The notes under the pieces were generated by a model that was not told where the DNA came from, ran no database searches, and saw nothing but the letters and a program-made list of their open reading frames with translations. From positions 1 through 20,032 of the forward strand of contig WJIO01000367.1 of NCBI GenBank assembly GCA_014730235.1: a stretch of DNA of 20,032 nucleotides. Reading direction: 5' to 3'. Shown piece after piece: positions 948-3,750 of the stretch (position 1 is the first letter of the stretch; each line of letters starts with the position of its first letter). Both the position numbers and the translations under genes were made by a program. This DNA is from Candidatus Poribacteria bacterium (GTDB taxonomy: Bacteria > Poribacteria > DTPJ01 > WJIO01).

Positions 948-964
948 TTGCAACTATCATGCCA
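948..964 (-). promoter_or_regulatory. Sigma-54 (RpoN) promoter of the exported protein gene
   Basis: The minus strand reads TGGCATGATAGTTGCAA. This gives the -24 GG and -12 GC dinucleotides with exactly 10 bases between them, and it matches the consensus TGGCAC-N5-TTGCA except at the last base of the -24 box. Transcription would start near 938, leaving a leader of about 70 nt. A nearly identical element precedes the hsp20 operon (2626-2642). Confidence 0.8.
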
Positions 965-1050
965 GATATGTAAAGCCTTGCAATTGCTTGATTTACCCAG
1001 TAAACACTTGCAATTACGTATATTATCAGATATATAAAATTCGGTGTAGG

Positions 1051-1086
1051 TGTATCATTTTTTCCACAGTGTATCATAGATGATAC
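1051..1086. promoter_or_regulatory. Possible enhancer (upstream activator) site: GTATCAT repeats
   Basis: GTATCAT occurs at 1052-1058 and again at 1071-1077, where it forms a perfect dyad with ATGATAC at 1080-1086 (GTATCAT-AG-ATGATAC). The dyad lies about 140 bases upstream of the predicted sigma-54 start, the usual distance for an enhancer-binding activator. A second small direct repeat, CTTGCAATT, sits at 977-985 and 1007-1015. The rest of 870-1161 shows no gene. The enhancer role is inferred from position and symmetry only. Confidence 0.4.
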
Positions 1087-1105
1087 TATTCAATATTGTA
1101 TAATA

Positions 1106-1142
1106 AAAAAGGAGTGGTATATTAAATATACCACTCCTTTTT
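1106..1142 (-). terminator. Intrinsic terminator of the hsp20 operon
   Basis: GGAGTGGTATATT at 1111-1123 is perfectly repeated in inverse at 1125-1137 with one base between. It is flanked by A-runs on one side and T-runs on the other, so the minus-strand transcript ends in a hairpin followed by U's, 20 bases after the last hsp20 stop. The symmetry would allow termination from either side. Confidence 0.85.
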
Positions 1143-1161
1143 AAATCTTTCCGGTGTATTT

Positions 1162-1557
1162 TTATTCAGGCTTAATTTCTATTTTTTTAGGTTTTACTCT
1201 TTCCTGTTTTGGTAATGTCAGAGTTAAAACACCGTTTTCCATTTGTGCGGATATTTTGTCTTTGCTAATCGTATCAGCTAAAACGAATGTGCGGAAATAT
1301 TCACCATAAGGACATTCGCTGATCAATTTTTCGCCTTCAGAATCAGGTTTTGGAAAAGTACCCTTGATAGTCAGTTCATCTTTATCTATATTCAGTTCGA
1401 CGCTATCTTTATTTAAGCCAGGTACATCGGCTATTAAGACCACTTCATCGGTTGTCTCATAAATATCAACTGGTGGTACAATCTGTCTTAAATCCTGTTT
1501 TACATCTTCAATAGTTTCTATTTCTTCTTTTTTTTCTTCATTTACTTCAGCAGTCAT
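1162..1557 (-). CDS. Small heat shock protein, Hsp20 family (third gene of operon)
   Basis: ATP-independent holdase chaperone of the alpha-crystallin family, cytoplasmic, 131 aa. The alpha-crystallin domain runs from about residue 30 (PPVDIYETTDEVVLIADVPG) to the hallmark NGVLTLTLPK. A C-terminal I-x-I anchor (KKIEIKP) docks to neighbouring subunits in oligomers. The N-terminal arm is short and very acidic (EVNEEKKEEIETIED), unlike its two neighbours, so it may co-assemble with them or recognise different clients. The start is taken at ATG 1557: a longer reading from GTG at 1566 would put the start codon inside the strong GGGAGGTGG ribosome site. It is the last gene of the operon and is followed by a terminator. 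Confidence 0.93.
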   Translation of the reverse strand: MTAEVNEEKKEEIETIEDVKQDLRQIVPPVDIYETTDEVVLIADVPGLNKDSVELNIDKDELTIKGTFPKPDSEGEKLISECPYGEYFRTFVLADTISKDKISAQMENGVLTLTLPKQERVKPKKIEIKPE

Positions 1558-1605
1558 TATCTCCACCTCCCTGCTGTATGCAGATATGTTAAAAATGGAT
1601 TAAGC

Positions 1606-2022
1606 TTATTCTCCTACAGTAATCTTTCTGGGTTTAGCTTCTTCAGCCTTTGGTAAAGTAATAGTCAGGATTCCATCCTTATATGATGCTATAACTTTCC
1701 CCGGATCAACTGAATAGGGTAAATCAATTAACCTGCGAAACTGACCATTTGGCCTTTCATGTCTAATATAAGTAACTTCTTCTTCTGTGGGCAGTTTCTT
1801 TTCACCCGCTATAGTAAGGGTTTCTCCTAATACTGTCAGTTCTACTTCTTCCTTGTTTACCCCGGGCACTTCAGCAGTGATTACCAGGGCATCACCTTTA
1901 TCAAGCATTTCAACAGGCGGATAAGCCGGTCTGGTGCGTCTCAGTGGATTAAAAAACAGAGAATTTACAGTTTTATTAAAAGCGTCCAATTCTCTGAATG
2001 GATCCCATACTGTAAGTCTCAT
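1606..2022 (-). CDS. Small heat shock protein, Hsp20 family (second gene of operon)
   Basis: Holdase chaperone of 138 aa. The N-terminus MRLTVWDPFRELDAF is the WDPFREL-type arm of classic bacterial Hsp20 proteins. The alpha-crystallin domain follows (PPVEMLDKGDALVITAEVPG, about residues 35-55, to DGILTITLPK), and the C-terminal anchor is I-x-V (RKITVGE). The start is ATG 2022, 6 bases after GGAGGTGG; an upstream in-frame ATG at 2037 overlaps that ribosome site and is unlikely. It lies 75 bases after the first hsp20 gene and 48 bases before the third, all on the minus strand, so the three are probably cotranscribed from the sigma-54 promoter at 2626-2642. Confidence 0.95.
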   Translation of the reverse strand: MRLTVWDPFRELDAFNKTVNSLFFNPLRRTRPAYPPVEMLDKGDALVITAEVPGVNKEEVELTVLGETLTIAGEKKLPTEEEVTYIRHERPNGQFRRLIDLPYSVDPGKVIASYKDGILTITLPKAEEAKPRKITVGE

Positions 2023-2097
2023 GATTGCCACCTCCATAGGAATTCATTTTCTACTATTGAATCCCCATTAATAACGGGAATTCACTAAACATATAAA

Positions 2098-2547
2098 TTA
2101 TTCAACATTAATCTTTATTTGCTTTGGTTTAGCTTCCTCCGATTTGGGAATATTTACATGAAGAACACCATCCTTATATGAAGCTTTGGCCTTATCAGCT
2201 ACAACGCCTGCCGGTAATGCAACAGAACGCTGGAAACTTCCATAACTTCTTTCAATACGATGGTAATTTTTCTCTTTTACTTCTTTTTCTTCTTTCTTTT
2301 CACCTTTCAGAATTAATGCATCTTCAGTAATAGTAATGTCCACATCGTCTTGGGTTATACCGGGGAGTTCTGCTGTAACAACAATTTCATTTTCAGTTTC
2401 TGCAATATCAATAGTTGGTGCCCATTCTCCTTCCAGCAACCCCTTTCGTCTTTCCGGTAATCCAGCAAAGAAATTATCAAATAATCTATTCATCTCATCT
2501 CTAATACCCAGCACATCTCTTGTAGGTCTCCATCGTCTAAGTGACAT
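2098..2547 (-). CDS. Small heat shock protein, Hsp20 family (first gene of operon)
   Basis: Holdase chaperone of 149 aa, first in a three-paralogue operon. The N-terminal arm contains IRDEMNRLFDNFFAGLPERR, typical of the longer bacterial class. The alpha-crystallin domain begins near residue 44 (WAPTIDIAETENEIVVTAELPG). It includes the charged L57 loop (GEKKEEKEVKEKNYHRIER) and ends with DGVLHVNIPK. The tail IKINV carries the I-x-I motif. The ATG at 2547 has AGGAG 9 bases upstream. The three paralogues differ mainly in the N-terminal arm, which sets client choice and oligomer form in this family. Expression from a sigma-54 promoter about 70 bases upstream is unusual for hsp20, which more often uses sigma-32 or CIRCE/ROSE control. 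Confidence 0.95.
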   Translation of the reverse strand: MSLRRWRPTRDVLGIRDEMNRLFDNFFAGLPERRKGLLEGEWAPTIDIAETENEIVVTAELPGITQDDVDITITEDALILKGEKKEEKEVKEKNYHRIERSYGSFQRSVALPAGVVADKAKASYKDGVLHVNIPKSEEAKPKQIKINVE

Positions 2548-2625
2548 ATCCTCTCACTCCTCTCAAATTCATTATTTTTCAATCATTTTCTAGCTTTTCT
2601 CTTTTCGATTTCAATAATTGATAAT

Positions 2626-2642
2626 TTGCAACAAGCATGCCA
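2626..2642 (-). promoter_or_regulatory. Sigma-54 (RpoN) promoter of the hsp20 operon
   Basis: The minus strand reads TGGCATGCTTGTTGCAA, with GG and GC separated by exactly 10 bases. The predicted start is near 2616, giving a leader of about 70 nt before the first hsp20 gene. The -24 and -12 boxes are identical to those of the promoter at 948-964; only the 5-base spacer and flanks differ. I saw no good sigma-70 or CIRCE element nearer the gene. Confidence 0.82.
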
Positions 2643-2895: not shown

Positions 2896-3750
2896 TTAAC
2901 TGATAAGCACTTTACGCAGATAATTCCCACATATAGTAAAACCTTCGTTCCTTCTTTCACCATCGAAGATCGGATCTTCATGCTCGATGACCATGTTACC
3001 TTTGTAACCAGCTTCGTAGAGAATTGTAAAGAACCTGTGCCAGTCCAGTTCACCAAAGCCTGGAAGCCTGTAGGTCCACCATCCTCGGGCATGGTTCCCA
3101 ACGCGTTCCAACTTGTCATAGAATATCTGAGTGTCTTTCAGGTGAACCATGTGGAAGTGATCAACAAAATCTTTTGCTGCCTTATAAGGATCAATCCACT
3201 GCCACATCAGGTGGGATGGGTCAAATTCAAGACCGATATTTGATGAAGGAACGGCTTCAAACATAAGTTCCCAGGCCTTAGGTGTAATAGGCAGGTTTGC
3301 ACCATCGCCAAAGGCCCTTCGTCCAGGCCAATTTTCAAAACCGATATTTACGCCTTTTTCCTCGGCCAGTTCAGCCACCTGAGAGTAAATCTCCTTATAC
3401 ATGGCGACATTATCTTCCAGACTTTTGTTGATGTTATAACCTGAAGGGCCTGCACCGGTATAAACAGCACCGTTCATATCGTTACATACATCCATAACCG
3501 CAGCCATTTTTTCAAGATGAGATTCTATCTCATCTTTGGGAGTAGTCAAAGGCGGCAAAGCTTCCATGATAGAAGCTATAAAGATATTGCTTTCATTAAG
3601 TACCTTTTTTGCTTCTTGCCTGGCTTTATGAGCTTCATCTGTATCGCCTATCCATTCCTTTGGTGGTCTGACTTCCAGACAGTCGAAGGAATTATCAGCG
3701 GCGAACTTAACCACTTCTTCTGAAAATCCTGTAAGAAATCCCAGTTTCAT
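2896..3750 (-). CDS. Sugar phosphate isomerase/epimerase (xylose-isomerase-like TIM barrel)
   Basis: A protein of 284 aa of the AP-endonuclease-2/xylose-isomerase-like superfamily, which isomerises or epimerises sugars with a divalent metal. Family landmarks are in order: MKLGFLTGFSEEVVKFAADNS (first strand), GFENWPG (metal-ligand Glu near the middle), LEFDPSHLMWQ (Asp and His ligands), FHMVHLKDT (His ligand) and MVIEHEDPI (C-terminal Glu). There is no signal peptide, so it is cytoplasmic. The ATG at 3750 has AAGGAG 10 bases upstream. It is transcribed alone from the sigma-70 promoter at 3791-3819 to the terminator at 2858-2886. The substrate cannot be read from sequence. The rhamnosidase operon further along suggests a carbohydrate role, but the two are not adjacent. 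Confidence 0.88.
   Translation of the reverse strand: MKLGFLTGFSEEVVKFAADNSFDCLEVRPPKEWIGDTDEAHKARQEAKKVLNESNIFIASIMEALPPLTTPKDEIESHLEKMAAVMDVCNDMNGAVYTGAGPSGYNINKSLEDNVAMYKEIYSQVAELAEEKGVNIGFENWPGRRAFGDGANLPITPKAWELMFEAVPSSNIGLEFDPSHLMWQWIDPYKAAKDFVDHFHMVHLKDTQIFYDKLERVGNHARGWWTYRLPGFGELDWHRFFTILYEAGYKGNMVIEHEDPIFDGERRNEGFTICGNYLRKVLIS

Follow-up and report, generated by a model that had tools for sequence, protein, structure and literature searches.

A sigma-54-dependent promoter of an hsp20 operon and a probable heat-shock regulon in Poribacteria

The promoter of a three-gene hsp20 operon in a Poribacteria genome is best read as belonging to a heat-shock regulon that depends on sigma-54 and is typical of that phylum, while a second sigma-54 promoter in the same region, in front of the gene for a Tyr-rich exported protein, would probably be served by a separate activator; we give this reading a probability of about 0.8. 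In this little-studied phylum, the heat-shock response would then probably depend on an activator in place of the regulators that usually control it. The window analysed is a whole contig (C311; 20,032 nucleotides) of a 5.53-Mb Poribacteria draft genome (MAG), and its features are collected in Table 1 together with three regulator genes from relatives.

Table 1. Promoters, genes and candidate regulatory sites in the window, and regulators near hsp20 in family f5
Feature	Position	Strand	Details
Sigma-54 -24/-12 promoter, hsp20 operon	2642-2627	minus	TGGCATGCTTGTTGCA; exact match to TGGCAYN5TTGCW; predicted start about 2616
Sigma-54 -24/-12 promoter, Tyr-rich exported protein	964-949	minus	TGGCATGATAGTTGCA; exact match; predicted start about 938
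hsp20 gene 1	2098-2547	minus	149 aa; PF00011, E 1.2e-24
hsp20 gene 2	1606-2037	minus	143 aa; PF00011, E 2.7e-21
hsp20 gene 3	1162-1566	minus	134 aa; PF00011, E 5.2e-21
Intrinsic terminator at end of hsp20 operon	1106-1142	minus	17-bp stem, then U-rich tail; RNA fold -22.2 kcal/mol, z -7.65
Terminator of upstream gene (2896-3750)	2862-2886	minus	
Heat-shock operator copy 1, putative activator site	2800-2812	minus	TGCCATATTGACA; starts 170 bp upstream of -24 box
Heat-shock operator copy 2, putative activator site	2829-2841	minus	CGCCATTTTGACA; one mismatch; starts 199 bp upstream of -24 box
Inverted repeat	2713-2738	minus	GATTTATAT-N8-ATATAAATC; between operator and hsp20 promoter
Exported Tyr-rich protein, N-terminal 289 residues	3-869	minus	Signal-like N-terminus; cut by contig end
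Candidate operator of Tyr-rich gene	1051-1068	unassigned	TGTATCATTTTTTCCACA; 18 bp; distinct from chaperone operator
NtrC-type response regulator, family f5	L264:15890-17284		
NtrC-type response regulator, family f5	L265:14406-15950		
NtrC-type response regulator, family f5	L266:1516-2931		

The initial annotation had described two promoters with identical boxes and exact spacing, each about 70 bases from a start codon, as the sole matches in the window. This description was confirmed, with the last point holding for exact matches. The pattern TGGCAYN5TTGCW is matched exactly at these two positions only, both times as TGGCAT-N5-TTGCA extending as TTGCAA and with exact GG-N10-GC spacing, and allowing one mismatch adds a single site, at 627-642, within the Tyr-rich open reading frame. 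The number of exact sites expected by chance on both strands is 0.05 under a first-order Markov model of the window (maximum 1 in 300). In each case 79 bases separate the end of the -12 box from the ATG (at 2547 for hsp20 and at 869 for the Tyr-rich gene), and the start predicted 12 bases after the GC lies about 69 bases before the ATG, which corresponds to predicted 5' leaders of about 69 nt. The operon (2547-1162) encodes three Hsp20 proteins, all of which have the alpha-crystallin domain PF00011, and its control region is isolated because the upstream gene has a terminator of its own.

Sigma-54 promoters are normally found at nitrogen or flagella genes, and sigma-54 acts through many activators. 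Two checks had been proposed along with the promoters, namely the presence of an rpoN gene and a genome-wide search for sites with a list of the genes downstream. The genome contains one rpoN gene (C396) with all three domains (AID, core-binding and DNA-binding), and PF00158, the sigma-54 activator domain of AAA+ enhancer-binding proteins, is matched 33 times, about 28 of them strongly. The search returned 32 exact sites, compared with three for a reversed-pattern control, and chaperone genes are among those downstream: the hsp20 operon, groES with groEL behind it (C366), a dnaK preceded by a receiver-domain gene (C134), and clpB (C338) (the last three at loci L029, L233 and L025). Other downstream genes include rubrerythrin, a paralogue of the Tyr-rich gene (C140) and two PRC-barrel genes. 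No sigma-54 site lies in the 374 bp upstream of grpE in the grpE-dnaK-dnaJ operon (C438), and at a second hsp20 gene (C116) a near-exact site occurs without the operator described below. The receiver-domain protein encoded directly ahead of dnaK is a stand-alone one, and this locus (L233:1327-3775) has one sigma-54 promoter and two heat-shock operators. The rubrerythrin gene (L022, C248) combines its exact sigma-54 site with an inverted repeat of its own (GTCGTTGT-N7-ACAACGAC) and has no heat-shock operator. Elsewhere in the genome, contig C377 (L228) carries consecutive cas1-, cas4- and cas3-like open reading frames of a CRISPR system, as judged by eye from the translations.

The proposal that sigma-54 controls the hsp20 operon is supported by the conservation of the site within the phylum. 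In all 29 hsp20 loci (the window's own genome and those phylum relatives having upstream sequence), the 200 bp upstream hold between one and three near-perfect sigma-54 sites, with none in the reversed control, and for groES 29 of 30 genomes have one; family f3 predominates among the relatives, and the loci are therefore not independent. For dnaK and clpB, the sites were examined in one genome, that of the window. When 80 hsp20 loci from many phyla were compared, the site was present in 13 of the 14 named Poribacteria, while among the other 66 a near-perfect site at the typical distance upstream of a clear hsp20 start was present in five (BMS3Bbin03, a Gemmatimonadota MAG, KSB1, Hydrogenedentota and one other bacterium). 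Such a site is missing from all 11 Deltaproteobacteria-labelled loci. The arrangement is thus characteristic of the phylum. The exceptions are families f4, in which the hsp20 site is missing, and f8, in which the groES site is missing. The upstream regions of hsp20 in family f3 (L052-L078) mostly contain two or three perfect sigma-54 sites in tandem, with intervals of about 62-73 bp and 23 bp that recur between species.

A comparison of the chaperone promoters of the window's genome revealed a common palindrome, TGYCA-N3-TGRCA. Within 300 bp upstream there are two copies at hsp20, two at groES, two at dnaK and one at clpB, the last with one mismatch and starting at -275. Across the phylum, 59 hsp20 and groES genes were searched over 450 bp upstream with up to one mismatch allowed, which gave 111 matches, compared with 2.1 in shuffled sequences. 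An unbiased enumeration of 9216 palindromes with five-base arms and gaps of 0-8 ranked its two forms first and second, and the third-ranked palindrome is the sigma-54 promoter itself, read as a palindrome. The element is absent at the other 28 exact sigma-54 sites of the window's genome (Fisher p 2.8e-5), and families f4 and f8 have no operator. Operator-like sites elsewhere in the window's genome lie mostly inside open reading frames and are taken as background. In where it lies and how it is built, this putative operator matches an enhancer of the kind bound by NtrC-type activators, and it was found in no relevant paper of the open-licence literature. Outside the phylum, hsp20 genes of a Gemmatimonadota MAG, KSB1, one other bacterium and Brocadia (L092, L109, L086 and L153) are preceded by a site resembling the sigma-54 pattern together with a palindrome resembling the operator; from these four loci, the circuit of promoter and palindrome may be wider than Poribacteria.

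The usual controllers of these chaperone genes elsewhere are HrcA/CIRCE and sigma-32 (RpoH). Neither HrcA nor the CIRCE operator was found in the window's genome. RpoH was not found among the five long sigma-70 proteins scanned, all of which fall well under the curated RpoH cut-off; the scan covered these five and not all of the remaining, mostly short, sigma factors. Neither system was thus found as a controller in this genome, and enhancer activation would stand in place of systems that control the same chaperone genes elsewhere. HrcA is present in eight of 39 Poribacteria relatives.

The sigma-54 control of the chaperones could instead answer a non-heat signal, such as nitrogen or carbon state, nitric oxide or growth phase, and form a general physiological regulon. 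Known sigma-54 activators are mostly nutrient sensors, the nitric-oxide regulator NorR binds a similar core (GTCA-N3-TGAC), and the rubrerythrin gene is among those with a sigma-54 site. However, every promoter that bears the operator is a chaperone promoter and the searches above gave no alternative heat-shock regulator in the window's genome, and we regard a non-heat signal as unlikely, if a serious contender. For a heat-shock activator, a lead comes from three Poribacteria of family f5, in which an NtrC-type response regulator (REC-AAA-HTH_8) is encoded about 1.4-4 kb from hsp20. The activators of the window's own genome are about equally similar to this regulator (34-50% over the aligned parts), and no partner was assigned.

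The second promoter of the window is judged to be a real sigma-54 promoter, and sites are also present at the Tyr-rich genes of families f2, f5 and f7 and at the own-genome paralogue. The protein has homologues in all 39 Poribacteria genomes searched, with full-length forms of 485-571 aa. The window copy has no Pfam or NCBIfam match, and the full-length homologues tested gave no Pfam match and no relative of solved structure. The proteins of relatives have a long C-terminal tail that is Ser/Arg-rich or charged.

The initial annotation had placed this protein under common control with the chaperones in an envelope-stress regulon, and this part of it found no support. The chaperone palindrome is absent from both own-genome Tyr-rich promoters, which share a different site, and an operator common to the two groups was rejected. 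Sites similar to the 18-bp candidate operator of the Tyr-rich gene lie upstream in L017, L195 and L208 (15, 16 and 14 of 18 positions identical; p <=0.002 each) and the match is not clear in L196, so that three of the four other Tyr-rich promoters have a close match. Further, the Tyr-rich sigma-54 site is absent in f3, the largest Poribacteria family, in which the chaperone sites are retained. A single envelope-stress regulon with the same activator at both kinds of promoter would agree with their common sigma-54 type and adjacency, and with the sigma-54 regulon of Flavobacterium psychrophilum, which also has chaperones and exported proteins (PMC9723704); set against the differing operators and the pattern in f3, it is improbable. 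The chaperones and the Tyr-rich gene most likely use different activators, and the better reading of the region is that of a chaperone regulon for heat shock alongside a sigma-54 gene that stands apart from it. That the sites are chance matches or relics, with transcription from sigma-70 promoters, is very improbable indeed, since sigma-70-type hexamers, one of them overlapping 2643-2614, occur in the region at chance frequency (eight found, 8.9 expected), whereas a chance origin of the sigma-54 sites is rejected by their excess in the window and the genome and by their conservation at hsp20 and groES across the phylum with a linked operator.

In the proposed heat-shock regulon, hsp20, groESL, a dnaK operon and clpB would each have RNA polymerase with RpoN waiting upstream, in a closed complex on TGGCAY-N5-TTGCW. 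Protein-folding stress would be sensed by a single dedicated AAA+ activator of the NtrC type, which would bind the one to three upstream copies of TGYCA-N3-TGRCA, loop to the polymerase and open the promoters, often two or three in tandem, by ATP hydrolysis. This activation would take the role that sigma-32 or HrcA/CIRCE has elsewhere. We infer the stress induction of the regulon from its gene content, and looping by one common activator is likewise part of the model. The wider proposal, that the whole phylum runs its core heat shock by enhancer-dependent activation, with a dedicated AAA+ activator that reads the palindrome and replaces both sigma-32 and HrcA, is a tentative one, to which we assign slightly less than even odds.

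Comparable arrangements are known from other bacteria. The ibpB gene of E. coli has sigma-32 and sigma-54 promoters and is, like the hsp20 operon here, a small heat-shock gene with a sigma-54 promoter; it differs in being a single gene in an RpoH-containing cell and not a whole chaperone regulon. In F. psychrophilum, groESL, dnaK, grpE-dnaJ, lon, htpG and clpB are transcribed from mapped sigma-54 promoters (motif SM4; PMC9723704). The two systems have in common the sigma-54 sites at groESL, dnaK and clpB and the exported proteins in the sigma-54 set; in F. psychrophilum, grpE-dnaJ, lon, htpG and skp also belong to the set and transcript starts have been mapped. In Poribacteria, unlike F. psychrophilum, hsp20 is a main target, grpE-dnaK-dnaJ is without a site and an operator is defined, and the system is known from sequence alone. 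Among the sigma-54 targets that a 2025 survey predicts for Bacteroidota and Planctomycetota (PMC12316311), GroEL, GroES, IbpA (Hsp20), GrpE, DnaJ and DnaK are enriched; these predicted heat-shock clusters, Hsp20 included, resemble the chaperone set described here. The text of that survey does not mention Poribacteria and, unlike the present analysis, its chaperone passages give no operator; the literature passages on the Bacteroidota and Planctomycetota regulon do not name its sensor. Sigma-54 control of small heat-shock genes, which the initial annotation had considered rare, is thus neither a local oddity nor unprecedented (PMC9723704, PMC12316311).

No paper on sigma-54 in Poribacteria was found in the open-licence literature. 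Sigma-54 control of chaperones as such is already known, and the new part is the phylum-wide operator. Bacterial heat shock is usually taught as control by sigma-32 or HrcA. If the proposed reading is true, a stress signal can instead be read by an enhancer-binding protein, with the chaperone genes awaiting an ATP-driven activator. The defined operator provides a handle for finding that activator, and could be looked for directly in Bacteroidota and Planctomycetota.
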